Positions 1,357 to 60,009 of a DNA stretch of 64,000 nucleotides are shown one piece after another. The position numbers and the translations under genes are program-made. Where the stretch lies: assembly GCF_000373965.1 (NCBI RefSeq), contig NZ_KB892857.1:233576-297575 (forward strand), written 5' to 3'. The DNA is from Uliginosibacterium gangwonense DSM 18521. Lineage in GTDB: Bacteria > Pseudomonadota > Gammaproteobacteria > Burkholderiales > Rhodocyclaceae. Numbering within the stretch: the stretch's first letter is position 1; each line of letters starts with the position of its first letter. A model generated the notes under the pieces. That model did not search any database and was not told the origin of the DNA. It was given only the letters and a program-made list of their open reading frames with translations.

Positions 1357-1394
1357 GTCTCCTCCCCCTCGGCCCTTCGGGCTCTATGACTTAT

Positions 1395-1877: not shown

Positions 1878-1887
1878 GTGATCCTCC

Positions 1888-3522: not shown

Positions 3523-3546
3523 TGTGGAACCCAAGGAGATGGACAA

Positions 3547-3834
3547 TGCCTTTGAATTCTAGGCGCCCCCCAGGAGGAACGCTTGTCGCACGTCAAGACC
3601 CGCTCGGCATGCGCACAGATTGTGCATGGTTGCGAAGCCTCACCTCTTACCCCGATAATGGATGTAAAGAATTGTTCAGGCGGCAGCCCGACTGAAAGGT
3701 TTCGTGGCGGCTGCTCGGGCTTACGGGCAAACCACCCTCCCTGCACAGCAAGCGCAGTTAGGCTCTTGAACCAAGCTTTCCAGCACTAGGCAGAAGCCCC
3801 TGTCATTGTTTTTTTATTCCTCGTGGAGATGCCT
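3547..3834. promoter_or_regulatory. Divergent intergenic region between iorA and the membrane/TPR gene
   Basis: This gap of about 288 bp separates two divergently transcribed genes, so it must hold the promoters of both. No convincing -35/-10 pair, operator palindrome or riboswitch could be recognised by eye. Short open frames here show no coding character. Confidence 0.4.
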
Positions 3835-5295: not shown

Positions 5296-5302
5296 GCCAA
5301 AC

Positions 5303-6739: not shown

Positions 6740-6875
6740 GGTGAGCCGATGCTACCAGAGCATGTCACAGCTGCCTATTACGCTGATTACCCACCAGTCT
6801 CTTGCGCAATATCAAGACGACTCCGGCTTATACTAGGGACTATCCTGCGGTTAACTATCTTCATCTGGAACTTAC

Positions 6876-8048
6876 ATGATTGCCCATTCCTTGCCCTCGC
6901 TTCTGATCCGTGGCAAAACCCTCCTGCCGGTTGTCCAGGGAGGCATGGGCGTGGGCATCTCCGCCCATAAACTGGCTGGCGCGGTGGCCGCTGAAGGCGG
7001 CGTTGGCACCATTGCCAGCGTTGACCTGCGCCGCCTGCACCAGGATTTGATGGAACGCACCCAGAATGCCACCCGCGAACTGATTGAACACGCCAACCTT
7101 GAGGCGCTGGACCGCGAAATCAAGGCGGCGCTGGAAACCGCCAAGGGCGCAGGCGTGGTGGCCGTCAATGTGATGCGCGCAGTCAGTCAGTATGCCGACC
7201 ATGTACGTCAGGCCTGCAAATCCGGCGCCCAGGCCATTGTGGTGGGCGCAGGGCTCCCGCTGGACCTGCCGGATCTGGTAGCGGAATTCAAGGATGTGGC
7301 GCTGATCCCGATCCTGTCGGATGCCCGTGGCGTATCACTGGTGGTCAAGCGCTGGATGCGCAAGAACCGCTTGCCGGACGCCATTGTGCTGGAACACCCG
7401 GGCTGGGCCGGTGGTCACCTGGGGGCGGCGAATATCACAGAATCCAGCAATCCGCGTTTTGACATGGAAACTGTGTTGCCCGAATGCGTGGAGGCCTTGG
7501 ACAAACTGGGGCTCAAGCGTGGCGAGATTCCCCTGATCCCCGCCGGTGGCATCAACACCATGGACCGGATCAAGGAGCTGATTGGCCTGGGCGCCTCTGG
7601 CGTGCAGATTGGTACCGCGTTTGCCGTGACGCAGGAAGGCGACGCGGACATGGCCTTCAAGCACGTGCTGGCTGACGCCAAGCCCGAAGACGTGATCGAA
7701 TTCATGAGTGCCGCCGGGCTGCCTGCCCGTGCCGTGCGCACCACCTGGCTGGAACGCTACCTGAGCCGTGAGGACAAGCTGCAAAAGGCCGCTGCCTGCG
7801 CCGCCGAAGGGCGCACCTGCTCGCAACGCTTTGACTGCCTGCTGCAATGCGGTCTGCGTGACAAACTCGCCAAGTTCGGCCAATTCTGCATCGACAAGCA
7901 ACTCGCCGCAGCCCACGCCGGAGACGTTGCCCAGGGGCTGTTCTTCCGTGGCAAGGGCATGCTGCCCTTTGGCAATGAAATCCGCCCTGTGCGCGAGCTG
8001 CTGGAAATGCTGCTGACCGGGCACGTCATCGGCAAAGCGAACACCTGA
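6876..8048 (+). CDS. Nitronate monooxygenase (2-nitropropane dioxygenase family)
   Basis: This 390-residue FMN-dependent TIM-barrel enzyme would oxidise alkyl nitronates such as propionate-3-nitronate. It has QGGMGVGIS near residues 21-29, the family active-site segment EHPGWAGGHLG (H181 as probable catalytic histidine), and the FMN-phosphate loops IPAGGI and GASGVQIGTAF. The C-terminal part contains a cysteine-rich stretch (CAAEGRTCSQRFDCLLQCG) that is often present in longer bacterial members. The ATG start has a GGAA upstream. A possible -10 element (TATACT, 6829-6834) precedes it without a well-placed -35. It stands alone between divergent and convergent neighbours. Confidence 0.9.
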   Translation: MIAHSLPSLLIRGKTLLPVVQGGMGVGISAHKLAGAVAAEGGVGTIASVDLRRLHQDLMERTQNATRELIEHANLEALDREIKAALETAKGAGVVAVNVMRAVSQYADHVRQACKSGAQAIVVGAGLPLDLPDLVAEFKDVALIPILSDARGVSLVVKRWMRKNRLPDAIVLEHPGWAGGHLGAANITESSNPRFDMETVLPECVEALDKLGLKRGEIPLIPAGGINTMDRIKELIGLGASGVQIGTAFAVTQEGDADMAFKHVLADAKPEDVIEFMSAAGLPARAVRTTWLERYLSREDKLQKAAACAAEGRTCSQRFDCLLQCGLRDKLAKFGQFCIDKQLAAAHAGDVAQGLFFRGKGMLPFGNEIRPVRELLEMLLTGHVIGKANT

Positions 8049-8060
8049 TCAGAAGCAAAA

Positions 8061-8097
8061 GGGCGTTAGCAGCGTGAAAACACTGCAACGCCCTCAA
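8061..8097 (-). terminator. Intrinsic terminator for the ceramidase operon
   Basis: GGGCGTT at 8061-8067 pairs with AACGCCC at 8087-8093, with a partly paired inner stem. Read on the minus strand, the stem is followed by TTTTGC, so it best fits the minus-strand operon ending at 8121. It lies between two convergent genes. Confidence 0.6.
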
Positions 8098-8120
8098 TTA
8101 CAGCACTCTGACACTTCTCC

Positions 8121-8825
8121 TCAGCGCCGCCGGTCCTGTTCCATCACGGTGTCTGAAGTCAGCAAGCCATGGTAGCGCCCTGAGCGCTCATGGCAGCCTG
8201 CAGCAAGCCCCCGCACACTCAGATACAGCACCGCAGCCGACAGCAGGTGCCAGCAGAAATGCGTGCCCGCAGGCCACACGGCACACAAGCCTCGGTCAAG
8301 ACTGCGCACGGCCAGGGCGACCGGGAACAGAGCGGCGGCGGCGAGCATCCACGGCGCACTGGCCGTGGATTTGCGCATCGCCCAGCGGGCCAGGAAAATC
8401 AGGCAGATGGCAGGCCCCAGGTAGAATTCCGAATCATTCAGCCCCAGTCCGCCAATGCGCCGGAGCGTCTCACCCACCAACAGCATGCCTGCTACGCACA
8501 GCATCAGGGTTCCGCTATGGGTGCGCACCACCTGACTGAGGTAGCGCTGCAAAAAAACCCCGATGAACAACACGATACAACCCATGTTGAACCAATGTGC
8601 CCACAGTTGCGCAGTCAGGTGAAACAGCAAGCTCCCCGTCCCCAACACTCCCAGCATGACGGCCATCCGCCGAGCCTCACGGCGGGCTTCGCTGGGGAGT
8701 TGCCGCAGCCACAGACGCCAGGCCACGGCGAAAAAGGCCAGGCTGGAGAGCACATTCAGCGGCTCCCCCCAGAAGGCCCCGTTGCTACGCTCGCAATAAA
8801 TACCAAGTACATCGAATAAGTTCAT
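8121..8825 (-). CDS. Ceramidase-like (CREST superfamily) membrane protein
   Basis: This is a 234-residue polytopic membrane protein. It carries the three CREST/alkaline-ceramidase landmarks: YCERSNGAFWGEPLN with a later LSSLAF near the N-terminus, a GTGSLLFH segment with a histidine in the second block, and HFCWHLLSA near the C-terminus. These supply the Ser/His/Asp residues that bind zinc in characterised members. The substrate in bacteria is generally unknown. The ATG at 8825 was chosen over a TTG at 8843 because AAGGA precedes it. Its ATG overlaps the stop of the upstream formyl-THF ligase gene (ATGA), so the two are probably translationally coupled. Confidence 0.75.
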   Translation of the reverse strand: MNLFDVLGIYCERSNGAFWGEPLNVLSSLAFFAVAWRLWLRQLPSEARREARRMAVMLGVLGTGSLLFHLTAQLWAHWFNMGCIVLFIGVFLQRYLSQVVRTHSGTLMLCVAGMLLVGETLRRIGGLGLNDSEFYLGPAICLIFLARWAMRKSTASAPWMLAAAALFPVALAVRSLDRGLCAVWPAGTHFCWHLLSAAVLYLSVRGLAAGCHERSGRYHGLLTSDTVMEQDRRR

Positions 8826-9418
8826 GTTTCCTTCCGCATCCAATACCCCGCTTCGGTCACCAACCAGTCCAAGGGACGGTCGTGCGCCTGCGGCTCGATG
8901 CTCTCCAGCCTCGACAGTTCAAACCCCACCCCAACCGTGACCGGCTGCGGGGTCAGACTTGCCAGGGTACGATCAAAATATCCCCCACCATAACCGATTC
9001 GGTAGCCTTTGGCGTCGAACCCGTTCACAGGAACGAGCAAAAGATCTGTGTCGAGTGTGACGTGTTCCACCGGTTGAGGGATGCCGAAGCGGTCTTGCTG
9101 CATGGCCGCCCCGGGTTGCCAGCGATAAAAGCGCAGCGGCCCCGGCTGCTCTGGCACAATGGGCAGCGCAGCCTGCCTGCCAGAATCTGCGGCAAGCCAG
9201 GTGGTCACGGCGGGCAGGATGTCGGCCTCGCCCCGATAGGGCCAGCAAAAGCCCAGGGTACGCGGCTGCAGGCGCGCCAGCAGCTCAAGCAGATGAGTAT
9301 TGAGGGTAACGGTCAACTGTAACCGCTCGTCTGCCGTTAACGCTTCACGGCGTGCAATCAATGCCTGGCGGAGTGCTTTGCGTTCAGGATTATTCGATAT
9401 CACGTGGTATGCTGCCAT
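8822..9418 (-). CDS. 5-formyltetrahydrofolate cyclo-ligase
   Basis: This 198-residue enzyme (MTHFS family, YgfA-like) converts 5-formyl-THF with ATP to 5,10-methenyl-THF, returning a storage folate to one-carbon metabolism. The substrate and nucleotide signature PVNGFDAKGYRIGYGGG followed by YFDRTL is intact in the second half, and the basic N-terminal helix RKALRQALIARREAL is typical. It is the first gene of a two-gene operon with the ceramidase-like protein. It starts 30 bp from the divergent transglycosylase gene. Confidence 0.93.
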   Translation of the reverse strand: MAAYHVISNNPERKALRQALIARREALTADERLQLTVTLNTHLLELLARLQPRTLGFCWPYRGEADILPAVTTWLAADSGRQAALPIVPEQPGPLRFYRWQPGAAMQQDRFGIPQPVEHVTLDTDLLLVPVNGFDAKGYRIGYGGGYFDRTLASLTPQPVTVGVGFELSRLESIEPQAHDRPLDWLVTEAGYWMRKET

Positions 9419-9447
9419 GCAGTAGGAATTTGAAGGGATGTTACGTC

Positions 9448-11394
9448 ATGAAGTTCAGGTTGTGCGCGGCACTGGCGGCGCTGTTGTGGCTGACGGGGCC
9501 GGTGCGGGCTGATTCCGGCGACGAGCGGATACTCGCTGCACGCGACGCGGCCAGCCGTGGAGACACCCAGCGCCTGAGCGCCTTGGCCAGCACGACCACC
9601 GATCACGCCCTGGAACCCTATCTTCAGTACTGGATACTCTCTGCCCGTGTGGCGCGCACCAGCGATGCGGTACCTGTCGACACCATCAACGACTTCCTGC
9701 AACGCAACAACAATTCCTGGCTGGCAGAGAAGTTACGCCAGGAATGGCTCAAACGCCTTGCCCGTGAGGGCAATTGGCCGCAGTTTGAAGCCGAGTACCT
9801 GATGCTTGCCCAGCCGGACCAGGATCTGCAATGCAATGCCATCATCGGTGGCGGTGCTGCTGCCATTGATGCCCAGCGTGCGCTGGAAGCGCAATGGCTG
9901 ACCCTGGTGGACACCCCCGATAGCTGCGCCCAGGTGTTCCGAACCCTGGTCAGCAACGGCCGGTTCAGCACTGAAGATGTGTGGCAACGTTTCCGTCGTC
10001 AGGTGGAAGCCAAGCGCCATACGGGTGCCCGCCAAACCTTGGGCTGGCTCCCCGATGAACAGGCACCTTCCACCGCTGCGCTCACCCTGGCGCTGGAAAA
10101 TCCGGTACGTTATCTCGCCACTGCCGCCGCCCAATCGCCTGCTGGCCGGCCCGGACGGGAACTCGGCATGGCCGCCGTCACCCGGTTGGCCCGTAATGAC
10201 GCACGTGATGCGCTGGCACGCTGGCGCAACATCGACTCGGCCTATCGTGACGAAGACCGCGCCTATGTCGCCGGGCAACTGGGCTGGATGGCGGCGGTAG
10301 CTCAGTTGGGCGAAGCGCTCCCGCTCTACACCCAGGCCAAGGGAGTTGCCATGAGTGACGAGCAACGGGCGTGGTATGCCCGTGCGGCATTGCGTGCCGG
10401 GGATTGGGCCGCTGTGCGGCTGGCCATCGAAGCCATGCCACAGGCCCTGCGCGAACAGCCGGAGTGGAGCTACTGGTTCGGGCGTGCGCTCAGCCAGTCA
10501 GGGCGCGCCCAGGATGCGCGTAATCTCTTCAGCCGCTATGCGGGGCAGCCCAATTTCTACGGCATCCTCTCTGCCGAGGCTTTGGGGCAGAATCTGCGCT
10601 GGCCTTCAACTGCTGCCCCCGCCAGCGCACAGGAACTGGCCCGCGTGCGCGCCAACGCCAGCATCCGCCGGGCAGAAGCCTTGTTGCGGCTGGACATGCG
10701 GACTGAAAGTGTGCGCGAATGGAACTGGGCCATGCGAGGGGCCGACGACCGCTTCCTGCTCGCCTCCGCCGAATATGCGCGCCGCATCGGCCTGTATGAC
10801 CGAGCCATCAACGCCGCCGATCGCACCCGCGACCAGCATGATTACGCCTTGCGCTACCTTGCGCCGTATTACGACACTTTTGCCCGGCAAGCGAATGAGC
10901 GTGACCTGAACCTGTCATGGGTATACGGTCTGGTCCGCCAGGAAAGCCGCTTCCTGCCCGTAGCCCGTTCCGGGCCCGGTGCGCAGGGGCTGATGCAGGT
11001 GATGCCCGCCACGGGGCGCTGGATCGCCAAGCGGGAAGGGTGGCGCGACTATGATAGTAGCTGGCTGACCCAAATCGAGACCAACGTGCAGCTGGGCTGC
11101 GCCTATCTGCGCCATGTGATGGATACGCTGGGCAACCAGATGGTGGTGGCTTCCGCTGCCTACAACGCCGGGCCAGGGCGCGCCAGACGCTGGCGCGACA
11201 GCCGCCCGATGGAAGGCGCCATCTATGCAGAAACCATCCCGATCCCGGAGACGCGTGACTACGTGAAGAAGGTGATGGCCAACTCCGTGCTCTACGAAAC
11301 CCTGCTCAGCGGGCGCTCCACCTCGCTCATCAAGCGTTTGGGCAAAGTGATAACCAGCAGCGGGGAAATCGCACTCAGCCCGGACGAACCCTGA
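9448..11394 (+). CDS. slt: Soluble lytic murein transglycosylase
   Basis: This 648-residue periplasmic enzyme cleaves the MurNAc-GlcNAc bond of peptidoglycan to give 1,6-anhydro products. A signal peptide (MKFRLCAALAALLWL, cleavage after VRA) precedes a long helical superhelix of about 430 residues and the C-terminal SLT lysozyme-like domain. The catalytic glutamate is E499 in RQESRF, followed by GAQGLMQVMP and, later, the AYNAGPGR motif. The layout is that of Slt70. The ATG at 9448 was chosen because it opens the signal peptide and GAAGGGAT lies eight bases upstream. Confidence 0.93.
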   Translation: MKFRLCAALAALLWLTGPVRADSGDERILAARDAASRGDTQRLSALASTTTDHALEPYLQYWILSARVARTSDAVPVDTINDFLQRNNNSWLAEKLRQEWLKRLAREGNWPQFEAEYLMLAQPDQDLQCNAIIGGGAAAIDAQRALEAQWLTLVDTPDSCAQVFRTLVSNGRFSTEDVWQRFRRQVEAKRHTGARQTLGWLPDEQAPSTAALTLALENPVRYLATAAAQSPAGRPGRELGMAAVTRLARNDARDALARWRNIDSAYRDEDRAYVAGQLGWMAAVAQLGEALPLYTQAKGVAMSDEQRAWYARAALRAGDWAAVRLAIEAMPQALREQPEWSYWFGRALSQSGRAQDARNLFSRYAGQPNFYGILSAEALGQNLRWPSTAAPASAQELARVRANASIRRAEALLRLDMRTESVREWNWAMRGADDRFLLASAEYARRIGLYDRAINAADRTRDQHDYALRYLAPYYDTFARQANERDLNLSWVYGLVRQESRFLPVARSGPGAQGLMQVMPATGRWIAKREGWRDYDSSWLTQIETNVQLGCAYLRHVMDTLGNQMVVASAAYNAGPGRARRWRDSRPMEGAIYAETIPIPETRDYVKKVMANSVLYETLLSGRSTSLIKRLGKVITSSGEIALSPDEP

Positions 11395-11528
11395 ATCGAA
11401 CCCGGCCCCCCGGGCGGGGAAGTGCCAAGACTCTTTCGCACCGGCCCCACAGTCAGGGATAATGCACGGCATCATCCCTTGAAAACAGGCGCCGTCTCTC
11501 TTTCAGACGCCTTCGGCTGGAGAAATGC

Positions 11529-12176
11529 ATGCAACTGGTCATCGGTACAAAGAACTACTCCTCCTGGTCTTTGCGCGGCTGGCTGGCCGTCAAGGCCAGC
11601 GGCCTGCCTTTTGAGGAAATCCTCATCCCCTTGTGCAAACCGGATACCCGGGAACGTATCCTGGCCCTCAGCCCCTCGGGCAAAGTACCTTGCCTGATTG
11701 AGCATGGCCTGGAAATCTGGGATTCCCTGGCGATTGCCGAATATCTGGCCGAAGTGGTGCCTACACTCTGGCCGCAAGACGCCGCAGCACGCGCACGCGC
11801 ACGCTCGGTGGCGGCCGAGATGCACAGCGGTTTCCAGGCGCTGCGTAACACTATGCCGATGAACATCCGGGGCCATTTCCCTGGCCAGGGCCAGACACCG
11901 GAAGTGCTGGCAGACATCAAGCGCATCGAAGCCATCTGGAATGACTGCCGAGCCCATTACAGTTCGGGCGGGCGTTACCTGTTCGGCCACTACAGCATTG
12001 CCGACATCATGTTTGCACCGATCTGTCTGCGGTTTGAAACCTATGGTGTCGAATTGAGCGGCTTGGCGCACGACTACGTGCAATCCATGCTCGCCCACCC
12101 CGATATGCTGGAGTGGAAGGCCGCCGCCTTGCTCGAAAACGACATCATCCCCGAATACGAATTCCGGAGTGCCTGA
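11529..12176 (+). CDS. Glutathione S-transferase family protein
   Basis: This 215-residue protein has an N-terminal thioredoxin-like domain (about 1-80) with YSSWSLRGWLAVKASG, the cis-proline region GKVPCL, and the ES-type glutathione contact written here as WDSLAIAEYL. An all-helical C-terminal domain follows. It would conjugate or reduce small electrophiles with glutathione; the substrate is unknown. GGAG lies eight bases before the ATG. It is the first gene of a tight run of four (GST, VOC protein, Hsp15, flavoprotein) with spacings of 1, -4 and 10 bp. Confidence 0.88.
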   Translation: MQLVIGTKNYSSWSLRGWLAVKASGLPFEEILIPLCKPDTRERILALSPSGKVPCLIEHGLEIWDSLAIAEYLAEVVPTLWPQDAAARARARSVAAEMHSGFQALRNTMPMNIRGHFPGQGQTPEVLADIKRIEAIWNDCRAHYSSGGRYLFGHYSIADIMFAPICLRFETYGVELSGLAHDYVQSMLAHPDMLEWKAAALLENDIIPEYEFRSA

Positions 12177-50001: not shown

Positions 50002-51954
50002 ATGAGCAAACAACGCCTTGATTCCCTCCGTGAGCTGCAGGCATTGGCGGACCACCTGCGCCCCAACCACCCCGAGGCCATTGCCGACGCCGCCCGGTAC
50101 ATTCGGGCAGAGGCCGCCCGGCTGCGCGCCAACCGCGCCGAAGCAGCACGCCTGGCCCATGCCCTGGACAGCAGCCTTGCGCTGCCACGGCAAACCGCCT
50201 TCTATGCCGAAACGGGGGTGCGCTCCGCCCTGGGCTTCTGGCTGGAACTCAACCAACGGCTCAGTCACCGTATTCTGCCCCCGGCAGATACGAATGAGGA
50301 GCTGGGCCAGCTCCTGGAAACAATCTTCCATGATCCAGACGACCATCTCTGGGTGAATGCGGTTGATGATGAGGTATGGGCGGAGCTTTTTCTGGCGATC
50401 GGCCTGGGGCAACGTGGCCCTGGCGGGAATGCCAACACACTGGGCAATCTTCTGGATGCGGCGCGGGTTGTCTCCTATCGGCTGGCGGGTGCGGCGCTCG
50501 ACCAGGAACTGCTGCATGCCGACCCCGCGCTGGAAGAGCATGAATCCCCCTTCCTGGCCCAGAACGCACAGGCTATCCCCATGCTGGATCGTGCCCGTGA
50601 AGGGGGTGCCTATCCCAGCCTGGATGAAATCCGTGATGTCGAGGTGCTGCTCGACCAATGCGCCAAGGCAGTGGACCGCGTGCGGCGACGAGCGCGCGAG
50701 AACGGCATCAGCATCCGCCTGACTTATCAACTGGCGCGCATGCGCCAGTTGATTGGCCGCCTGCGCGAATTGCTTGATCTCCTCGCCCCCGATGACCGCC
50801 TGTTGCGGGCCATCCGCCTGATGAAGACCCTGCTAACGGCAGTCCAGACCCGCCATCGCGTGCTGCCCTTCATTGGGGAGAACATCGCGCTGCTGGCGCG
50901 CAATGTCACCGATTGCGCCAGCCGCCACGGCGAGCATTACATTGCCGCCGACCGGCAGGCCTGGTGGGGCATGCTACGCAGTGCCGCCGGGGGTGGGGTG
51001 ATCATCGCCATCATGGCTTTACTCAAGATTCGCATTTCCCTGCTGCATCTACCACCGCTGACCGAGGCCATTGCCTTCAGCCTGAACTATGGGCTGGGCT
51101 TTGTACTTATCCACATGCTGGGCCTGACCGTGGCCACCAAGCAGCCCGCCATGACGGCCGCATCGATTGCCGCCACCGTGGAAGAAGCCCACCCGCGTGA
51201 GCTGGACCGGCTCTGTGCGCTGGTGCAGAGCGTTACCCGCACCCAGTTCATCGCCGTCATCGGCAATGTTTTGCTGGCTGTGCCCATTGCCTGCCTGCTG
51301 GCGTTTTTATGGTATTACCTGACTGGCGTGCCCCTGGCACCCAGCGAAAAAGCCATGCATCTGCTTGCCGATGTACATCCCTGGCAGAGCGGCGCCCTGC
51401 TGTATGCGGCGGTGGCAGGGCTGGGGCTATTCCTCTCTGGGCTGGTGTCCGGCTTTTTTGACAACAAGGCACGCTACCACTCGCTGGCCCTGCGCATCCG
51501 CCATGCCCCCTTGTTGCGCAGGCTGTCAGCAACACGGGCCACGCGGATCGGCCATTATGTTGACGAACACCTGGGTGCCATCCTGGGGAATCTGTTTTTT
51601 GGCTTTTACCTGGGCATGACCGGGGCATTGAGCGTTCTCACCGGCCTGCCTGTGGATATCCGCCACGTGGCCTTTTCCAGCGCCAATCTGGGGACGGCAC
51701 TGACCACACAGGGCTGGGCTGCCACGCACACCCTGCTGCCCTGGGCGATTGCGGGTGTCATCGGGGTCGCCCTGGTCAACCTCCTGGTCAGCTTCTCCCT
51801 GGCCTTGTACGTGGCCATGAAGTCCCGCCAGTTGGGGGCAGAGCATATGCTGAGCCTGGGGCAGATCGTGCTGCGGCGCTTTTTGCGCCACCCCTTGAGT
51901 TTCGTCCTGCCACCTCCGCCAGCCAAGGTGGAAGCACTCCCTCCACCGGCCTAG
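50002..51954 (+). CDS. Gcr-type 'site-specific recombinase' membrane protein
   Basis: This 650-residue protein has a helical N-terminal half (about 1-330, with DNPDDHLWVNAVDDEVW-like text at about 110-125) and a C-terminal half with several strong membrane spans, for example AMLRSAAGGGVIIAIMALL, FSLNYGLGFVLIHMLG and FIAVIGNVLLAVPIACLLA. It resembles the Pfam SpecificRecomb/Gcr family of Neisseria and related betaproteobacteria. That family name comes from a genetic association with gene conversion; the membrane topology makes a direct recombinase doubtful. The ATG at 50002 was chosen by family-like start; an AGGT lies upstream. Confidence 0.8.
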   Translation: MSKQRLDSLRELQALADHLRPNHPEAIADAARYIRAEAARLRANRAEAARLAHALDSSLALPRQTAFYAETGVRSALGFWLELNQRLSHRILPPADTNEELGQLLETIFHDPDDHLWVNAVDDEVWAELFLAIGLGQRGPGGNANTLGNLLDAARVVSYRLAGAALDQELLHADPALEEHESPFLAQNAQAIPMLDRAREGGAYPSLDEIRDVEVLLDQCAKAVDRVRRRARENGISIRLTYQLARMRQLIGRLRELLDLLAPDDRLLRAIRLMKTLLTAVQTRHRVLPFIGENIALLARNVTDCASRHGEHYIAADRQAWWGMLRSAAGGGVIIAIMALLKIRISLLHLPPLTEAIAFSLNYGLGFVLIHMLGLTVATKQPAMTAASIAATVEEAHPRELDRLCALVQSVTRTQFIAVIGNVLLAVPIACLLAFLWYYLTGVPLAPSEKAMHLLADVHPWQSGALLYAAVAGLGLFLSGLVSGFFDNKARYHSLALRIRHAPLLRRLSATRATRIGHYVDEHLGAILGNLFFGFYLGMTGALSVLTGLPVDIRHVAFSSANLGTALTTQGWAATHTLLPWAIAGVIGVALVNLLVSFSLALYVAMKSRQLGAEHMLSLGQIVLRRFLRHPLSFVLPPPPAKVEALPPPA

Positions 51955-52075
51955 CTTAAGAAGCCATAACAAAATGGTTCTGGCGTTGTTGCGCCGCCTT
52001 GCCGTACTCCTTGTACTGTCTGCGTCAGCACGCCTAGCCAGAACCGTTGCACTCCATTTTGTTACGGCTTCTAAG
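51955..52075. repeat. 121-bp imperfect palindromic element
   Basis: The left end CTTAAGAAGCC-A-TAACAAAATGG and right end CCATTTTGTTA-C-GGCTTCTAAG are near-perfect inverted repeats. An inner GGTTCTGGC/GCCAGAACC pairing is offset by an 8-nt insertion, and a GTAC-TCCTT-GTAC motif sits at the centre. It begins on the base after the stop codon of the Gcr gene and has no coding capacity. It looks like a non-autonomous, REP- or MITE-like element. No second copy was seen in this window. Confidence 0.6.
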
Positions 52076-52244
52076 GCTCGCCAGGGCCCCTCGCACCCTT
52101 TGTCGGCATGGTCGTGCTGCGCCCCCCAGCCGGGCGGCCATATCCTGTATGATTTCCGGCGATCCGGGCTGGATGCTGGGGATGTCTGATCCGGCACAGG
52201 CCCGCATGTTTTCACGCATGACCCAATTTCAACGGAGAATCTGC

Positions 52245-55200
52245 ATGACGGCGACGCGTGCCATCCGGGAGCGACAACTCTACCGCCCCGGCCGCCCTGC
52301 TCAGAGTATCTGGCTGCAAGTCTTCCGGCTTGATGCCACGACAGCCAGCCTGCATATCCGCTCGCGCACGGGCACAGCGGAGTGGGATACGGCAGTGCAG
52401 CGGCAATTCTCCGCACCTGATGATGCGGCCATTGATGCCCGCCTGCTGCAAGAAGAATCCCGCTGGCTGGCCGAAGGCTATCAGGCTGAGGGTCTGGCGC
52501 TGCCTGTCTGCAGGAGCACCGCACAAGCTGCGCCCGCCGCCATCGCCCGCCTGAGTGCACTGCTTGACCCCAACCAGTGGCGCCTGCTCTCCCCCAGCCG
52601 ACGCGCCCGCGTGGCTTGGCGCCTGGGTGAATTGCGGGCACGTGAAGCGGCCCCCGCCCTGGCAGAACTGCTGGGCAGCGGCGACAATCTGCTCGACTAC
52701 TGTCTGGTATGGGCGCTGGGGCGTTGTGGCACGCAGGCTCAGGCTGACGCGCTCATCAAACTTGCCCAGCAGGATGCCCAGCGCAAGGGCGAACGTGGCG
52801 AAGCACTGACCCGTCTGCTGCGGCTGGCGTGGCTGGAACTGGCCTCGGAATCCTCCCGCCAGCAGTACCTCGACAGTCTGGTTGAAGACTGGCCCGCCGC
52901 CTTGCGCAAGGCCTGGCAGGAAGGTGATGACGCCAACATCACCGCCGCCGTGGCCGACCCGGCAAGTTTCCAGCGCCTGGGTTTTGGCGAATGGCTGGAG
53001 CATGTGGACCAGATCGCCCGTTTTGATCCGCTGGCCCGCAAGCGTCTGCACACCATCCTGGCTGGCGTGAAGGTGGAAGCAGGCGTCTTCCGCGCGCTGC
53101 GCCACCTCTACAAAGCGGCGGAGATGCGCGGGGATGGAGCCACCTGGGCTTTGCTGGCGCTGCGCTTTGAGCAGACCCCCGGCACGTTTGGCGACCGCAA
53201 CAGCTATCGCTACATCCGCCGCAAGTGGCAGTCCGTGCGGGATGAACTCACCCGTGCTGATTCCTCGCTGGCGTGGTCACGGGCTACGCGCGGCTACTTC
53301 CTGCGCCGGAGTTGGCGCAGCCTGCGGCGCCTGGGGATTGCCAACAGCCCGGAATTCATTGACATGGCTTTTGCCACCCTGATGCGTTTCGACGAAGCCA
53401 CCACGCAGGCCCCCAGCATCCAACAACTGAGCCATTACGATTATCAGGCGCGGATGTGGCGGCAAAGCCAACGCCATCACCCGGCATTTGGCCGCTCCAT
53501 GCTGTTCAACCGCCTGCTACATCGCCCTGGTGGCGCCTTGCGCAGCAACACAAACGGCACCTGCTGGTGGAGTGAAGCACCGCTGGCCGCCCGCCAGACG
53601 CGGGAGGAAGCCTTCCCGGCACTCTGGAACGAACGCCCCGACCTGCTCGTGCGCCTGCTGCTCGAAGCGCGGGCCGAGACCATTCATGCTTTCGCAGCGC
53701 TAGCCCTGCAAGATTGCCAGCCCTACCTTGCCCAGCTCGACGAGGCGGTCTGGCTGCGCCTGCTCAACAGTGCCTACGCCTGCACGGCAGAATTCGCCCT
53801 GGCGCAGATCCGCAGCCGCATCGAAGCCATCACCGACACCTCTGCTCGCACGCCCTGGCTGGTGCTGCTGGTGGGCAGCCGCCATCAGGCTGTGTGGCAG
53901 GCTGCGCTCGACTGGATCAGTGAAGACCCCGCCCGCTACGCTACCGACGCCCGGCTGGTGGTGGCCATGCTCACTGCCCATCACAAGGCAGTACGCCAGC
54001 AGGCCCGCCTGCTGTGCCAGGCCTCACTGGCCCATACAGAGGTGGCTGAAGCAACGGTCGCCCAGTTGCTCAACTGGCTGGAAGCGCTGGATGACCTGAG
54101 CGATGCAGCCACGGCCCCTGCTGCCGACGTACGCTGGGCCATTGCCAACCCGCTACGGCCCTATGCCTCGGTGGTGAAGCATGCACGCCTGCTGGCGCTG
54201 CTGGCGGGCCCATGTGCAGCGGCCCAGGTGACGGCGGTGGAGTGGTTGCTGCTGCATCAGGCGCCGGTTTCCGACATCCCGGTCAGCGCCTACAAGACTT
54301 TGCTGGATTCGCCTGATGAAGCTGTGCAGGGCGCGGGGGTGCGTCTCTTCGGTGCCTTGCCCGACAGCATCCTGCTGACCCAAGGCGCATTGGTGGCCCG
54401 CTTTTGCACCAGCAGTGTCGCCGCCGTGCGGGAAGCCGCCATCCCTGCGCTGACGCGCCTTGCCGCAGCCGACCCGGCCTTTGCCCGGGAACTGGCCGCA
54501 GCACTGGCAGACAGCCTGTTCCGTGCGGAAGAGGCCGATGGCCTGCACGCGCACATCACCAAGCTGCTTACACAAACCCTGGCTGAAGCCGCCCGCACGC
54601 TGGATACGGCACTGTGCCTGCGTCTGCTGATTGCGCGCAGCCGGGCTGCACAAGTGTTTGGCGCGTGGCTGCTGGCGGGCTTACCCGACGATGCCCTTGG
54701 AGCACGGGACTGGAGCCGCCTGGGTCGCGTCGACAGCCTGGAAGTTCGCCAGCGTGCGCTGCGCGTATTGGCGGACATGCTGGATCGTGACGCCAGCCTG
54801 CTGGACGAGGTGCTGGGCGTACTGGATACACGCTGGGATGAGACGCGCGAAGGGGCCACCGCCCTGCTGCGCCAAAAGATTGCCGCCAGCCAATGGACGC
54901 CTGCCCAGCTCATCGCCCTGTGCGATCACCTGAACCCTGCGGTGCAGGCCTTTGGGCGCGAGCTGATCCTGCCACGCCTGCAAGGCGAAGCGGCTCTGGA
55001 TTATCTGCTCCCACTGGCCGAGCACCCGGCGCCCCGCATGCAGCAATTTGTTGCCGAGTGGCTGGGGGCTGCGCTGCCTGCCGACCCGGCGCTGCTGGGG
55101 CAGCTGCGCCTGTATTTTGTCACCGTGCTCTCCCAGGTCAATCGTGGCCGGGTGGCCAAGTCCAGCACCCAGGCGCTGTTGCGCCAGCTTGCCGCGCAAT

Positions 55201-55373
55201 CCGAAGCCTGCGCCCGCGAGGTAGTCGCAATCTTTGAACGGCTCGCGGTAACCGTGGCGATTGCCGACCGCGCCCAGTACATTGCCGGTCTGTATGAGAT
55301 CCGCGCCTGTTATCCGGAGCTGGGTGGCACATTGAATATTGTGGCGCCCGAGTTGCGCAAAGGAGCCGCGTGA
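52245..55373 (+). CDS. HEAT/ARM-repeat protein of the retron locus (N-terminal WGR-like domain)
   Basis: This 1042-residue soluble protein has an N-terminal region of about 80 residues (QSIWLQVFRLDATTASLHIR then EESRWLAEGYQ) that resembles a WGR domain, though weakly. The rest is almost entirely short helical pairs of HEAT/ARM type, for example APALAELLGSGDNLLDYCLVW and AVQGAGVRLFGALPDS, rich in Ala, Leu and Arg. No enzymatic motif is seen. GGAG lies seven bases before the ATG at 52245. It is first of a co-oriented group: SWIM protein (4-bp overlap), non-coding RNA region and reverse transcriptase. This partner type is what I recall from type XIII retrons, where it would be part of the effector or a recognition scaffold. 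Confidence 0.82.
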   Translation: MTATRAIRERQLYRPGRPAQSIWLQVFRLDATTASLHIRSRTGTAEWDTAVQRQFSAPDDAAIDARLLQEESRWLAEGYQAEGLALPVCRSTAQAAPAAIARLSALLDPNQWRLLSPSRRARVAWRLGELRAREAAPALAELLGSGDNLLDYCLVWALGRCGTQAQADALIKLAQQDAQRKGERGEALTRLLRLAWLELASESSRQQYLDSLVEDWPAALRKAWQEGDDANITAAVADPASFQRLGFGEWLEHVDQIARFDPLARKRLHTILAGVKVEAGVFRALRHLYKAAEMRGDGATWALLALRFEQTPGTFGDRNSYRYIRRKWQSVRDELTRADSSLAWSRATRGYFLRRSWRSLRRLGIANSPEFIDMAFATLMRFDEATTQAPSIQQLSHYDYQARMWRQSQRHHPAFGRSMLFNRLLHRPGGALRSNTNGTCWWSEAPLAARQTREEAFPALWNERPDLLVRLLLEARAETIHAFAALALQDCQPYLAQLDEAVWLRLLNSAYACTAEFALAQIRSRIEAITDTSARTPWLVLLVGSRHQAVWQAALDWISEDPARYATDARLVVAMLTAHHKAVRQQARLLCQASLAHTEVAEATVAQLLNWLEALDDLSDAATAPAADVRWAIANPLRPYASVVKHARLLALLAGPCAAAQVTAVEWLLLHQAPVSDIPVSAYKTLLDSPDEAVQGAGVRLFGALPDSILLTQGALVARFCTSSVAAVREAAIPALTRLAAADPAFARELAAALADSLFRAEEADGLHAHITKLLTQTLAEAARTLDTALCLRLLIARSRAAQVFGAWLLAGLPDDALGARDWSRLGRVDSLEVRQRALRVLADMLDRDASLLDEVLGVLDTRWDETREGATALLRQKIAASQWTPAQLIALCDHLNPAVQAFGRELILPRLQGEAALDYLLPLAEHPAPRMQQFVAEWLGAALPADPALLGQLRLYFVTVLSQVNRGRVAKSSTQALLRQLAAQSEACAREVVAIFERLAVTVAIADRAQYIAGLYEIRACYPELGGTLNIVAPELRKGAA

Positions 55374-57067
55374 TGGAATTCCAGCACCGCTATTTCGGCC
55401 AGAGTCAGGCCACCCACACGCCTGAAGGCTCGGCACTGAGCTTCGCGCCGGATACCCTGCGGCCGCCGGTGTATTTCTCGGGCCAGTTGGCGCAGCATCT
55501 GCCGTTCCGCGAGGCCATCTCCGCGATGCATGACGTGGTGGTATCCGATCTGCGTACCCTGCCGCGTGAGCGACCGGAGTATTTCGCCTGGCTCAAGGAT
55601 GCCGAGGCACAGATGCTGGCGGAATTCATGCAAGGCGCAGCACAGGCCAAGACCCGCATGGCGGCCATCGACACGGAACTCGCCGCGCTGCGCAGCCGCA
55701 AGAGCGCCTTGTTGGGGCCCTTCTACAGTGCGCGCAAGAAGTATTTCGATCATCTCTACAAGACGGATTTCTCACGCTGGGTGGTGCTGGACCCGGTGAT
55801 CACCGTGCACCCGGATCGCATCTTCTTCGAGTGCTTCAGCAAGGATGAATCCACCTATTCGGTATTGAGCTGCAGCCACAACGTTTTCAGCGCGCAAGGC
55901 GAATTCGCCTGTGGCACCACCAATATCGATTATTCCGCTGGCCTGTACGACGAATTCCAGAAGATTCGCGGCTATCGCAAGACGCATCTGGCCATTGAGC
56001 CCACGGGTTTTACCGTGCAGAACGAAAACGACCCCAGCTTTGTCGAGCAGAAGATCGACGTGCCCGACAGCTGGGTGCGGGGCTTCCTGCAAGTCAGCTC
56101 GGCCATGACCCAACCCGCCCAGCGCGTGCATCTGCACCCGATGGACCTGTACAACATCTGCCAGACCCTGCGCCGCCGCAAGGAACGCGGCGGGCCACGC
56201 TCGCTGCGCTTCGAGCTGCAACCGGGCGCGCCCGTGCGCATCGTGTTCGAGCCCTGGAATCTGGTGCTGGAATGCCCGCGTTCCACGCACGAGGCCAGCG
56301 AGGCGCAAACCATCCGTATCTGGGGGCGACGGCGCCTGCTGGTGCTCGAACGCATGATTCCGGTGGCAGACCGGCTGACCGTGCACCTCCTGGGCACCGG
56401 GCTGCCGAGCTTCTGGGTGGTCGACATGGGAGAACTGCAATTCACCCTGGGCCTCTCCGGCTGGACGGCCAATGACTGGTCACGCAACGGGCAGTTTGAC
56501 CTGATGGGTTCCCGCGAGCATACCGATACCGACAGCCGCAACCGCGTCTATGACCAGCTCTGCCAACACTGGCAGATGGAGTCCGGCGCACTGGCCCGTG
56601 CCTGCAATCTGGAGCCTGCGTTTGCCACGGCCTGCCTGCAGCTCTTCACCCAGTCTGGCCGCGTAATGTACGACTTGGCCAATGGCGTCTATCGCCTGCG
56701 CGAGCTGACCCGCGAGCCGCTGCCGATGAACAAGCTGCGCTTTGCCAACGAGCGCGAGGAAGAGGCCGCCAAGCTGGTCGCAGATGGCTGCGTGGAAGGC
56801 TTCCGCCGTGAGGGCGACGACCAGAAACGCAGCTTGAGCGGCAAGGTAAGGGACGCTGGCAAACAGCACGATGCGAAGCTGACCGTTGATGCTAATGAGC
56901 GCATTGCCTCAGCCGAATGTAGTTGTGATTTCCACTTCCGCAACCGCCTGCGGCGCGGCCCCTGTGCCCACCTGCTGGCCTTGCGGCTGATTGATGGACA
57001 GCGCCGCCTGCAAGACCGAGCCGCCCGTGCTGCCGATCGTCGCCAAAACGATACGACCGCCCCATGA
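55370..57067 (+). CDS. SWIM zinc-finger protein of the retron locus
   Basis: This 565-residue protein has a C-terminal SWIM motif C517-x-C519-x12-C532-x-H534 (ECSCDFHF then GPCAHLLAL), a zinc site found in proteins that bind DNA or other proteins. The middle part contains a probable winged-helix-like region near 395-445 (RNRVYDQLCQHWQMESGALA, later GRVMYDLANGVYRLREL). The N-terminal 390 residues are of unknown fold with long charged helices (AQAKTRMAAIDTELAALRSR). It overlaps the HEAT gene by ATGA and ends 50 bp before the inverted repeat of the predicted retron RNA. No nuclease or other catalytic motif was found, so the effector mechanism is open. Confidence 0.85.
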   Translation: MMEFQHRYFGQSQATHTPEGSALSFAPDTLRPPVYFSGQLAQHLPFREAISAMHDVVVSDLRTLPRERPEYFAWLKDAEAQMLAEFMQGAAQAKTRMAAIDTELAALRSRKSALLGPFYSARKKYFDHLYKTDFSRWVVLDPVITVHPDRIFFECFSKDESTYSVLSCSHNVFSAQGEFACGTTNIDYSAGLYDEFQKIRGYRKTHLAIEPTGFTVQNENDPSFVEQKIDVPDSWVRGFLQVSSAMTQPAQRVHLHPMDLYNICQTLRRRKERGGPRSLRFELQPGAPVRIVFEPWNLVLECPRSTHEASEAQTIRIWGRRRLLVLERMIPVADRLTVHLLGTGLPSFWVVDMGELQFTLGLSGWTANDWSRNGQFDLMGSREHTDTDSRNRVYDQLCQHWQMESGALARACNLEPAFATACLQLFTQSGRVMYDLANGVYRLRELTREPLPMNKLRFANEREEEAAKLVADGCVEGFRREGDDQKRSLSGKVRDAGKQHDAKLTVDANERIASAECSCDFHFRNRLRRGPCAHLLALRLIDGQRRLQDRAARAADRRQNDTTAP

Positions 57068-57117
57068 CAACCCGATTTTTGTTCAAGGAGACGCATCGCC
57101 TCTGATACACTGGCTAC

Positions 57118-57339
57118 GCGCAGCAGCGGGGTGGCTCTTGCAACCCGGGTGGTGGATCGCCGCCCTTGTTTTCAGCCCTCCCACGCGTCACTGGCCCGCT
57201 CTTCACTGTGCGGGACAGCACTACCTGTCGCAATGGCGGTTGGGCTTGCTACAAGCCCATTAGCGACAGGTAGTGCGTCCCGCGTCGAGTGGAGCGCTCC
57301 AGTTTGACAGGCTCTTCGATGAGAACCCTGCTGCTGCGC
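57118..57339 (+). ncRNA. Predicted retron msr-msd non-coding RNA
   Basis: This structured region lies between the SWIM gene and the reverse transcriptase. A long hairpin occupies 57204-57291: CACT/AGTG at its base, GCGGGAC (57210) with GTCCCGC (57277), GCACTACCTGTCGC (57218) with GCGACAGGTAGTGC (57263), and TGGGCTTG (57241) with CAAGCCCA (57252) around a CTA loop. These 29 core base pairs fit an msd stem. GCGCAGCAGC at 57118-57127 is exactly complementary to GCTGCTGCGC at 57330-57339, placing an a1/a2 pair around the whole unit. A smaller stem (57147-57165, with G-U pairs) lies between a1 and the hairpin, as in an msr. The branching guanosine could not be fixed. Confidence 0.82.
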
Positions 57340-57377
57340 CCCTGCCTCTGTGTTCATCCGGCTGTGCCCAGCACACC

Positions 57378-59285
57378 ATGAGCTATCAAGAAACGCCCGA
57401 ACTCCAAGCCCTGCGTGAGCGCATCCGTGCCAGCACAAAGGATGCCGTCGTCCTTGAAGAGATGCGTCGCCTGGGCTATTGGCCCAAGGACGAGGCGATC
57501 CCCGACAGCCGCGATGCGGCCAGCGAAATCGGCCAAATCATCCAGCGCGAAGGCGAACTGGTTGGCGAACTGCACAAGATGGCGCAGGATCTGCACCGCC
57601 TGAGCGACCCGCAACAAGCCCTGCAAGAGATGCGCAAGCAGCGCATGGCCGCAGCCCGTGCCAAGCGTGAGGAAACGCGCCGCCGCCACGCCGAGGAACG
57701 CCACCAGCGCGCAGCCGCCTGGCATGCCCAGCGGCAAAAGAGCATTGCCTGGCTGGGTGAGGAAGTCTCTACTGGCCTGGCTGATGTACGCACCGATGCA
57801 GCACGCCTGCACGCCAAGAGCCTGCCGGTGATCGAATCGATTGGTGAGCTTGCCCGCCTGATGGGGGTGCCACTGGCGGAGCTGCGTTTCCTGGGGTATC
57901 AGCGCAGCGTCTCACGCATCAATCACTATCATCGCTTTGGCATCGCCAAAAAAACTGGCGGTGTACGCGTCATCTCCGCCCCTATGCCACGCATGAAGCG
58001 GGCACAATATTGGGTGCTCGACAAGCTGCTGGTGAGCCAGCCCGTGTCAGCCTCGGCCCACGGTTTTGTGCCCGGTAAATCGATCGTCGACAACGCCCGC
58101 GTCCACGCAGGCCATGATGTGGTCATCAACTTCGACCTCAAGGATTTTTTCCCCTCGATCCACTATCCACGGGTCAAGGGGCTGTTCAGTTCATTCGGAT
58201 ATTCCGATAGCGTAGCAACACTACTGGCCCTGCTGTGCACGGAAGCGCCGACCGAAACCGTGGAGATGGACGGCCAGCGCTACCATGTGCAAACCGGCCC
58301 GCGCTGCCTGCCACAAGGTGCGCCCACCAGCCCGGCGATCACCAATCTGCTCTGCCGCAAGCTGGACCGCCGCCTGGAAGGCAGTGCAAAGAAGCTCGGC
58401 TTCAGCTACACCCGCTATGCCGACGACATGACCTTCTCTGCCCCGGCAGAAGCCCGCAGCAAACTGGGGCAGATGCTGTGGTGCGCCAAGCAGATCATTG
58501 CCGATGAAGGCTTCATCCTGCACCCGGACAAGCAGCGCGTGATGCATGCCGGGCGCCGCCAGGAGGTGACCGGACTGGTCGTCAATGAACGCCCTGCCGT
58601 GCCGCGTGAAACGCTGCGCCGCTTCCGCGCCACCTTGTTCCAGGTGGAAAAGGATGGGCCGGAAGGCAAATCCTGGAATGGCAACGGCAATGTGATTGCT
58701 GCACTGGATGGCTATGCCCGCTTCATCTACATGGTGGACGCAGACAAGGGCGCACCGCTGCTGGCCCGCATTGCCCAACTCAAGGAGCGCTGGAGCGGCG
58801 CCCCGGTGCGCAAGGCACCCGGCCTACTGTCCGGCCCGGCTTTCCGGCGTGCTGCCGGGGAGGGCAAGGCACCCCGCGAAAACTGGTGGACGCCTGCCGA
58901 GCAGGCCGCACCCGTAGTCGAAAAGACCGATCAGCAACGTGCTGAAGACCGGGCCGCCGCCAAAGCCGCCATCCGCCTGCAAAAGGCTGAAGCCCAAGCC
59001 ACCGCCGCACCCGCCTCCTCAGAGCAGGCAGAGACTGCGCCACCGCCTGCCAGCCTCGCCCCCGAGGAAGCCGCCAAGGCACGTGCGCTGAGCGCCTCGG
59101 ACTCCATCCAGATTCTGATCCAGAGCATCGTCATGGTGCTGGCCGGGCTGGTCACCCACAACTATCTGGTCCTGTTGGGAGCCGTGGTCTGGTTCTTCCT
59201 CTCGATGAGCAAGCGGAAACGCTACAACTGGCTGATCTGGGCTGTCGTCTATATCGCCTGCCGCATCTTGGGCGGCGTGCATTAA
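57378..59285 (+). CDS. Retron reverse transcriptase with coiled-coil N-terminus and hydrophobic C-terminus
   Basis: This 635-residue RNA-directed DNA polymerase would make branched or linked msDNA from the adjacent RNA. Polymerase motifs are NFDLKDFFPSI (catalytic D253), LPQGAPTSP (311-319) and YADD (347-350, both metal-binding Asp present). The retron-specific NAxxH (NARVH, 239-243) and VTG (397-399) motifs are intact. About 165 residues precede the polymerase, including a long charged helix (about 80-125) likely to form a coiled coil. A disordered Ala/Pro/Glu-rich linker (about 505-570) leads to two or three hydrophobic segments (about 577-611 and 616-634), so the enzyme may be membrane-tethered. 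The ATG at 57378 has no good ribosome site; an upstream in-frame GTG would lie inside the hairpin. Confidence 0.9.
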   Translation: MSYQETPELQALRERIRASTKDAVVLEEMRRLGYWPKDEAIPDSRDAASEIGQIIQREGELVGELHKMAQDLHRLSDPQQALQEMRKQRMAAARAKREETRRRHAEERHQRAAAWHAQRQKSIAWLGEEVSTGLADVRTDAARLHAKSLPVIESIGELARLMGVPLAELRFLGYQRSVSRINHYHRFGIAKKTGGVRVISAPMPRMKRAQYWVLDKLLVSQPVSASAHGFVPGKSIVDNARVHAGHDVVINFDLKDFFPSIHYPRVKGLFSSFGYSDSVATLLALLCTEAPTETVEMDGQRYHVQTGPRCLPQGAPTSPAITNLLCRKLDRRLEGSAKKLGFSYTRYADDMTFSAPAEARSKLGQMLWCAKQIIADEGFILHPDKQRVMHAGRRQEVTGLVVNERPAVPRETLRRFRATLFQVEKDGPEGKSWNGNGNVIAALDGYARFIYMVDADKGAPLLARIAQLKERWSGAPVRKAPGLLSGPAFRRAAGEGKAPRENWWTPAEQAAPVVEKTDQQRAEDRAAAKAAIRLQKAEAQATAAPASSEQAETAPPPASLAPEEAAKARALSASDSIQILIQSIVMVLAGLVTHNYLVLLGAVVWFFLSMSKRKRYNWLIWAVVYIACRILGGVH

Positions 59286-59325: not shown

Positions 59326-60009
59326 TCACATCGCCCCGAACACCTTGCGGGCAATGCTGCCAATCGCCTCGGCGGGGTGGGCGCGAATCTGGCGCTCCTC
59401 TTCTCCGATGCGGATATAGAGCGCATCCAGGGCGTGGCGGGTGACGAAATCCTCGATCCGGGCATCCTCGCTACGTACCAGCCCCAACGCAGCCCCCTGG
59501 CTGGCAATGCGGTTATAGCGCTCGGCGAGCTTCACCTTCTGGGTGGCGCTGCTCACAATGGGCAGGAACTTCTGGGTCAGGGGCTCAATGGTCTTGCTGC
59601 GGAAATACTGGGTCACCGAATCATCCCCACCCGTGAGAATGTTCTTGGCATCCTGTACCGTCATCTGGCGCACGGCATTGATGAGCAAGGGCTTGGCTTC
59701 GGCCACCGCCACTTCGGCAGCCCGGTTCATGGCCTGATGCAGATCATCCACCGCCTTGCCCTGGCCCATCATGCGCAGCGCGGGCTCCAGCTTCTTGATG
59801 GTATCCGGCAGGGGGATGCGGAACTCAGGGTTACCCTGGAAGCCACCCTCCACCCCCAGATTTGCCACCGCCGCCCCAGCCCCTTGCTCCAGTGCCTGAC
59901 GCAAGCCCTTGCTCGCATCCTGGGTGCTGATGGCATCAAGCAGCCCGGCATGGGCAAACAACGGCAGACAAAACAGGCAACAGGCCAGCAGATGGCGACG
60001 TGAAATCAT
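59326..60009 (-). CDS. DUF4197 family exported protein
   Basis: This 227-residue protein has a signal peptide (MISRRHLLACCLFCLPLFAHA) followed by GLLDAISTQDASKGLRQALEQGA, typical of DUF4197. Further marks are NPEFRIPLPD, DAKNILTGGDDSVTQYFR and the C-terminal DALYIRIGEEERQIR. Family members are periplasmic and of unknown function. The paired cysteines in the signal region could suggest a lipoprotein, but the spacing is not a clean lipobox. It is convergent with the retron reverse transcriptase. Confidence 0.85.
   Translation of the reverse strand: MISRRHLLACCLFCLPLFAHAGLLDAISTQDASKGLRQALEQGAGAAVANLGVEGGFQGNPEFRIPLPDTIKKLEPALRMMGQGKAVDDLHQAMNRAAEVAVAEAKPLLINAVRQMTVQDAKNILTGGDDSVTQYFRSKTIEPLTQKFLPIVSSATQKVKLAERYNRIASQGAALGLVRSEDARIEDFVTRHALDALYIRIGEEERQIRAHPAEAIGSIARKVFGAM

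Follow-up and report, generated by a model that had tools for sequence, protein, structure and literature searches.

A type XIII retron of Uliginosibacterium gangwonense with a partner protein of predicted clamp fold

The locus described here lies in a stretch of 64,000 nucleotides of Uliginosibacterium gangwonense DSM 18521 (assembly GCF_000373965.1, contig NZ_KB892857.1, positions 233,576–297,575), hereafter the window, and on its sequence it is almost certainly a complete type XIII retron, which adds a new member to a retron type that is known but has seen little experimental work. In the 2020 retron classification of Mestre et al., type XIII is reportedly the set of a reverse transcriptase (RT), a HEAT/ARM protein and a winged-helix/SWIM protein. 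The RT, the msr-msd RNA, a WGR-derived HEAT protein and the SWIM protein form one system conserved across phyla, and the SWIM protein is predicted from its structural model to be a clamp-fold DNA-binding protein composed of a two-domain clamp, a winged helix and a SWIM finger. The clamp fold, the types of RT tail and the gene sets with parts far apart were not found by word match in open-licence papers and are new as far as these searches show; no description of the mode of action of type XIII retrons was found by the same kind of search.

Identity and distribution of the locus

Four co-oriented elements follow one another on the plus strand at 52245–59285, as the initial annotation had described: the gene for the HEAT-repeat protein (52245–55373; 1042 amino acids, the N-terminal ~85 of which are a degenerate WGR domain), the gene for the SWIM protein (55373–57067; 564 amino acids), a non-coding gap (57068–57377), and the RT gene (57378–59285; 635 amino acids with an N-terminal extension of ~145). 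The first two genes meet in the junction TGATG. Because the near-invariant SWIM start, conserved in at least 90% of 67 relatives, is the ATG at 55373, the two genes overlap by one base, and the overlap of 4 bp initially reported requires the alternative start GTG at 55370. The initial annotation mentions neither the predicted clamp fold of the SWIM protein, nor the hydrophobic tail of the RT, nor the descent of the HEAT protein from a WGR protein.

All three proteins match the type XIII models of PADLOC strongly, the HEAT protein matching WGR_XIII with 897 bits (E = 3.9e-270) and HEAT-ARM_XIII with 94 bits, the SWIM protein matching SWIM_XIII with 745 bits (E = 1.2e-224), and the RT matching RT_XIII with 615.5 bits (E = 1.8e-185), with the next model at 321.7 bits among the best 25 of 53 matches. 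The RT also has a Pfam RVT_1 match and carries the three motifs first noted in it, namely NARVH at residue 239, YADD at 347, and VTG at 397. Its clade was compared by the scores of retron, group II intron, and defence-associated RT (DRT) models alone, and by these scores it belongs with the retrons (three NCBIfam retron models at 202–225 bits) and lies far from the group II intron (58.6 bits) and abortive-infection groups (Drt2, 36.0 bits; Drt3a, 24.8 bits).

The same gene set recurs in other genomes, which together with the PADLOC matches bears out the type XIII assignment made in the initial annotation. A profile scan of genome contigs with the SWIM alignment returned 509 relatives, the best 80 of which were taken as loci L015–L094; within the stretches fetched, 76 of the 80 hold a HEAT gene, 69 an RT gene and 68 both, and the HEAT and SWIM genes thus co-occur with RTs. 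With this and with the model scores of the RT, neither of the two outcomes named in the initial annotation as refuting it came about. The 11 loci with no RT in the stretch comprise four whose contigs are short or cut (L039, L057, L067, and L089), L072, and six others (L031, L034, L056, L066, L077, and L087), all six of which have an RT_XIII match elsewhere in the genome. Similarly, the four loci with no local HEAT gene (L031, L043, L056, and L087) all have a WGR_XIII match elsewhere in the genome. A type XIII retron called by PADLOC has also been published for Variovorax (excerpt of PMC11953036).

It is highly improbable that the locus is a housekeeping or decaying element and no working defence retron. 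Its rarity among kin would fit such an element, since SWIM_XIII is found in 2 of 121 relatives (E 1e-100) and in 4 of 398 genomes of the phylum (E 1e-20), the window's own genome being counted in both, and so would the degenerate WGR domain of the HEAT protein in the window; however, defence systems usually have a patchy distribution, the three open frames, the RT motifs and the RNA are intact in the window, and the cassette is conserved across phyla. A scan of viral contigs confirmed a SWIM relative in none, and phage records returned none at E 1e-5.

Predicted clamp fold of the SWIM protein

The SWIM protein probably has a two-domain PCNA-like clamp fold, a prediction that extends to the fold alone, membership of the PCNA family not being claimed. 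The AlphaFold2 model, built from a 66-row alignment, has a mean predicted local distance difference test score (pLDDT) of 78.5 and a predicted template-modelling score of 0.72, with pLDDT block means of 76–96 over residues 141–360. The predicted parts are the clamp fold (residues ~34–361) with a coiled-coil insert (68–131), a winged-helix-like part (~386–442), and the SWIM finger (~474–538). Domain 1 is modelled as a strand (34–39), a helix (45–57), the helical insert, strands (142–185), a helix (189–196), and strands (204–227), and domain 2, after a linker helix, as a strand (250–254), a helix (256–268), strands (277–317), a helix (319–331), and strands (334–361), with the winged-helix-like elements and then the SWIM finger following at the C-terminal end. 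A PCNA subunit, likewise of two domains, has its strands and helices in the same order.

When the model was compared with the PDB by Foldseek, the best 50 rows were all PCNA-type clamps (best E 3.4e-10, probability 1.00), with template-modelling (TM) scores by target of 0.61–0.69. Against predicted viral proteins, 28 of the best 50 rows carried the name of a clamp (PCNA, DnaN, or Pol III beta), the other 22 being unnamed, uncharacterized, or otherwise named. Among 67 sequences, the two helices of domain 2 carry a net positive charge in 99% and 100%, respectively, and the strand part in none (mean −8.6), a pattern also seen in DNA-encircling clamps, whose helices are basic and whose strand part is not. 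Pfam SWIM matches 65 of the 67 family members (E up to 1), and the finger residues C516, C518, C531, and H533 are invariant.

The HEAT protein and a possible adaptor complex

The HEAT protein has a Pfam HEAT_2 match, and its AlphaFold2 model (mean pLDDT 89.4) is a mostly helical solenoid with an N-terminal domain of low confidence; a fold search with this model returned generic solenoids only, with TM scores of at most 0.27 among the best 50 rows. Pfam WGR matches (E up to 0.01) are found in 31 of 35 N-termini that were hand-picked from 70, a choice that left out many rows of the degenerate branch (many Variovorax, Massilia, Parachitinimonas, and L013 rows) and rows with uncertain starts, and the N-terminus in the window has no match. 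A YGRRG-like core is present in most of the 70 N-termini, absent from the window, Variovorax, Parachitinimonas, and L013, and altered in Massilia. By its sequence, the HEAT protein is a descendant of a WGR-HEAT protein in which the WGR domain has become degenerate in the window's branch. WGR domains, known from the PARP family, bind DNA ends; such a domain is a trait of the branch and is not known to belong to the definition of type XIII.

The HEAT and SWIM proteins could also work together as a sensor or adaptor complex by which a host enzyme is brought in, or could possess a catalytic activity that escaped detection; the clamp-like fold would then be only a scaffold for docking on DNA. Many invariant polar residues in the SWIM protein agree with this alternative, as do its mean column identity of 63% (67 sequences), against 42% for the RT (59 rows) and 32% for the HEAT protein (70 rows), a ranking biased upward for the SWIM protein because the loci were chosen by SWIM similarity, and the resemblance of the HEAT solenoid to generic adaptors. 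It is nevertheless rather unlikely, because Pfam, NCBIfam, and PDB sequence searches and the family scan reveal no catalytic family in either protein, in line with the initial annotation, which had seen no catalytic motif in them.

The msr-msd RNA

The non-coding region had been annotated as structured from the outset, and both folding and compensatory changes across phyla agree with this. The segment 57065–57400 folds at −158.8 kcal/mol, compared with −122.9 ± 5.1 kcal/mol for 100 shuffles (z = −7.05). Gaps of 230–520 nucleotides from 62 loci including the window (L007 and L011 omitted) were aligned and thinned to 46 sequences less than 90% alike, for which RNAalifold gives a consensus of 36 pairs, for 28 of which one or more sequences have both sides changed. 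Pairing holds in 92.2% of cells, compared with 70.1% in shuffled alignments, and the covariation score is 0.636, compared with 0.228 when shuffled (0 of 500 reach it) and at most 0.191 when slid, although the comparison with slid versions favours the structure because the consensus was derived from the same alignment.

The msr-msd RNA spans 57118–57339 on the plus strand and is closed at its ends by an inverted repeat, with arm a1 at 57118–57131 (14 nucleotides, one G-U pair) and arm a2 at 57326–57339. The a1/a2 flank duplex of the window (−54.5 kcal/mol) is stronger than those with all 44 swapped flanks, and 23 of 45 loci, including the window, behave in this way (L083, with a short flank, was omitted). 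Inside this repeat, the element 57137–57165 consists of CTTGCAA followed by the conserved msr hairpin GGGTGGTG-GAT-CGCCGCCC (57147–57165), paired in 98.9% of cells of the 46 sequences. An outer stem at 57190–57303, in which ACTGG..CTCTTCACT pairs with AGTGGAG..CCAGT, is paired in 94.1% of cells with 7 of its 10 pairs changed on both sides, and it encloses the long msd hairpin (57210–57283), where 57210–57231 pairs with 57263–57283. The stem of this hairpin is variable, with all 18 pairs of helices 3–5 changed on both sides and helix 4 paired in only 74.6% of cells, and its tip retains a CGGT-like motif and a small inner hairpin, the C at 57237 being invariant. At the gathering threshold, Rfam matched two tRNAs only in the window and not this RNA.

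Systems with parts far apart

In several cyanobacterial genomes the parts of the system lie at separate chromosomal sites. In Moorena bouillonii (L087), the RT gene is found near 1.86 Mb, the HEAT gene near 2.65 Mb, and the SWIM gene with the RNA near 7.555 Mb of one contig; in Calothrix parasitica (L034), the HEAT gene, SWIM gene, and RNA lie near 1.86 Mb and the RT gene at 3.05 Mb; and in ESFC-1 (L031), the RT gene lies at 2.30 Mb, the RNA at 3.41 Mb, the SWIM gene at 3.456 Mb, and the HEAT gene near 3.516 Mb. All of these widely separated parts have been retained, and the parts therefore behave as one functional system, kept together by function; the retron parts presumably act in trans, and the RNA served by a retron RT may lie far away from it.

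The RNA was located with an msr model (R1) built from 39 of the 46 sequences and run over 35 sources; the window RNA, itself part of the model, scores 87.3 bits. The RNA stands directly after the SWIM gene in four cyanobacterial loci with the RT elsewhere (L034, L056, L077, and L087) and in L072, where the RT is outside the fetched stretch, and the neighbourhoods of the distant RTs (L104–L107) gave no R1 match, L107 ending soon after the RT. Four loci have 2.2–2.8 kb between the SWIM and RT genes, with the RNA adjoining the SWIM gene in three of them (L030, L052, and L063) and lying 2.6 kb after it, near the RT, in L062; L086, a close relative, was among the sequences of the model. L034, L053, L056, and L039 each gave two RNA matches, which on the short contig of L039 may reflect an assembly repeat; those in L049 are weak. 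In some genomes, one RT may therefore serve two RNAs.

Additional genes accompany some of these loci. Between the RNA and the RT in the cyanobacterial loci L030, L052, and L063 there is a gene for an RNase III-like protein with a double-stranded RNA-binding motif and an NYN-like gene, recognized by Pfam in the L052 copies and by eye in L030 and L063; the RNase III-like product could process the RNA. In the Chitinophagales locus L043, a scramblase-domain protein (Pfam PF03803) is encoded at 10997–11758 between the SWIM and RT genes, and the Calothrix locus L034 contains, at 947–10930, two HEAT-type genes and two ncRNA matches, which follow the first HEAT gene and the SWIM gene, respectively.

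The reverse transcriptase and its tail

At its N-terminus (57378–57815), the RT has the conserved extension of ~145 residues found ahead of the RT core in enzymes of type XIII, with the consensus L-E-E-M-x-R-L-G-F-W, in which the window has Y for F. At the opposite end, residues 576–635 (59103–59282, plus strand) form a hydrophobic tail of probable membrane segments (maximum 19-residue Kyte-Doolittle mean 1.91), and chances are about equal that the RT is, as predicted, tied to the membrane by it. The tails of 59 of the 70 RTs, the 11 omitted being mostly near-copies, are membrane-like in 22 (hydropathy >1.6), short and W-rich (WWKFW, WWNVV, and similar) in 28, absent in 7, and of another kind in 2. 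By named phylum, the membrane type is found in 17 of 19 Pseudomonadota and the W type in 21 of 21 Bacteroidota. The membrane type changes four times on a quick RT-core tree, at least two of the changes being forced by well-supported branches, and it is plausible that there are two kinds of membrane tether, one having taken the place of the other; alternatively, the W-rich end may be a docking peptide for the clamp.

The tail also raises the question of whether a membrane-tied RT is itself the executor, infection freeing or reorganizing it so that the tail or the complex disturbs the membrane while the HEAT and SWIM proteins sense phage DNA. The hydrophobic tail and its repeated changes on the tree are consistent with this, but the tail cannot be the general effector because 7 of the 59 RTs, all cyanobacterial, are tailless and 28 have merely a linker and the short W-rich end, and an executor role of the RT is distinctly improbable.

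Another alternative gives the SWIM protein to its own RT as a processivity or assembly factor that encircles the growing hairpin of the multicopy single-stranded DNA (msDNA) together with the RT, the HEAT protein alone being an effector scaffold by which a host target is recruited or titrated. Polymerases are the classical clients of sliding clamps, the RNA adjoins the SWIM gene in most cyanobacterial loci with the RT apart, and the W-rich RT ends could dock on a clamp. This is unlikely, however, because the RTs of other retrons are known to produce msDNA with no clamp, SWIM homologues stand beside DUF6493 proteins where neither an RT nor the RNA was found near, and the W-rich end is missing from the cyanobacterial RTs, while most Pseudomonadota rows have membrane-like segments in its place.

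Proposed mode of action

In the general retron model, a complex of RT, ncRNA, and RT-DNA sequesters a toxic effector until infection (excerpt of PMC12548924), and a restraint step is proposed for type XIII on this basis. Tentatively, the RT-msDNA complex would restrain a DNA-binding effector of clamp fold, and replication would be blocked once this effector is released. The RT would use the msd as template for a long DNA hairpin that remains bound to it, and this complex would keep the HEAT and clamp-fold proteins inactive; a phage product that alters or removes the msDNA would release the clamp-fold protein, which, with the HEAT protein as a scaffold or loader, would bind or encircle replicating DNA. 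The replication machinery would then be blocked and phage growth stopped at the cell's expense, with no enzyme activity needed. The clamp fold in the SWIM partner thus suggests a testable interference with replication clamps instead of an enzyme.

A narrower version of this proposal, in which the SWIM protein is a decoy, is rather doubtful. In it, the RT-msDNA complex, membrane-tied in most Pseudomonadota, would keep the PCNA-fold SWIM protein off DNA, and on infection the released protein would take the clamp's place and stall phage and host replication, while the WGR-HEAT protein, recognizing DNA ends, would help to place it on replicating DNA. The toxin would in that case be a counterfeit replication part of a non-enzymatic kind.

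Several points weigh against a released clamp-fold effector acting as part of a single conserved system. The clamp fold is a prediction, and the Foldseek clamp matches have root-mean-square deviations of 3.7–9.1 Å; a comparison of the SWIM protein with PDB sequences gave no clamp up to E 10, nor was there one among the matches listed by Pfam (best 25 of 69) and PHROGs, and the helices of domain 1 are not basic (mean charge −0.75 for aA1 and +0.30 for aB1). The degenerate WGR domain of the window's HEAT protein counts here as well, as do the selections from which WGR domains and RT tails were counted and the missing tail in all 7 cyanobacterial RT rows, because of which membrane tethering is not universal. 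For the RNA, the number of pairs changed on both sides is only modestly above shuffles (28 vs. 24.6), further pair types show no excess (74 vs. 78.2 in shuffles), and 22 of 45 loci have at least one swapped flank that pairs no worse than the own one. As for the placing of the parts, the RNA of a gammaproteobacterial system with the RT apart (L066, G401) lies beside the RT (L108) and not beside the SWIM gene, that of ESFC-1 stands alone ~45 kb from the SWIM gene, and in a Bacteroides system (L085, L109) the RT and a weak RNA match lie upstream of a HEAT gene with its matches in two overlapping frames. Finally, toxicity, msDNA production, and phage defence are putative at this locus.

Genomic surroundings

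The retron is flanked by a gene of the SpecificRecomb family (PF10136; 49864–51954) and a DUF4197 gene (59326–60009). Just upstream of the HEAT gene, at 51953–52085, there is an element of ~120 bases with inverted-repeat ends that resembles a miniature inverted-repeat transposable element or a repetitive extragenic palindromic sequence; 24 matches to it were returned in the genome, 16 of which, itself included, are ~90 bases or longer with 80–100% identity. The same genome encodes a second retron-like RT (188560–189561 of contig C34) in a 462-amino-acid open frame, with RT_other (445 bits) as its best PADLOC model. A promoter and terminator scan gave about as many predictions as in shuffled sequence.

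Comparison with known systems

In the yehF-yehI-yehQ region of Escherichia coli, a WGR-family protein (YehF, PF05406) and a SWIM protein (YehQ) likewise occur together, and this region also encodes a DUF4132 protein. That the HEAT and SWIM proteins are akin to YehI and YehQ was considered and rejected, as the profile match is limited to the SWIM finger of YehQ and YehI gives none.

SWIM proteins are also encoded beside DUF6493-type proteins on plasmids of Diaphorobacter, Asticcacaulis, and Streptomyces (L008–L010 and L110). These SWIM proteins are homologous to those of type XIII over most of their length (three sequences; hhalign 99.9%, E 2.8e-34, 433 columns), and one of the partners has a weak HEAT_2 match below the Pfam cut-off. 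The pairs differ from the retron in that an RT was neither found nor annotated nearby, the msr model gave no match, and profile comparison shows no match between the partners and the type XIII HEAT protein, for which reason homology of the two was rejected. Because these RT-less proteins match SWIM_XIII as well (135–176 bits), a match to this PADLOC model alone is not proof of a retron. One such pair adjoins an integrase and a VapC pair. The SWIM and DUF6493 genes are a possible two-gene system, perhaps related and unexplored, and if the SWIM protein does act as a decoy clamp, they would represent this module in a form free of the retron.

With PCNA-type clamps, the modelled SWIM protein shares the strand-helix order and the overall two-domain fold, and it differs from them in a 64-residue coiled-coil insert in domain 1, an added winged helix and SWIM finger, basic helices in domain 2 only, and no sequence similarity found to clamps. 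With type XIII retrons, the locus shares the set of RT, HEAT/ARM, and winged-helix/SWIM proteins and the strong matches to the three PADLOC protein models, and it differs from them in the WGR domain of the HEAT protein, which is degenerate in the window's branch.

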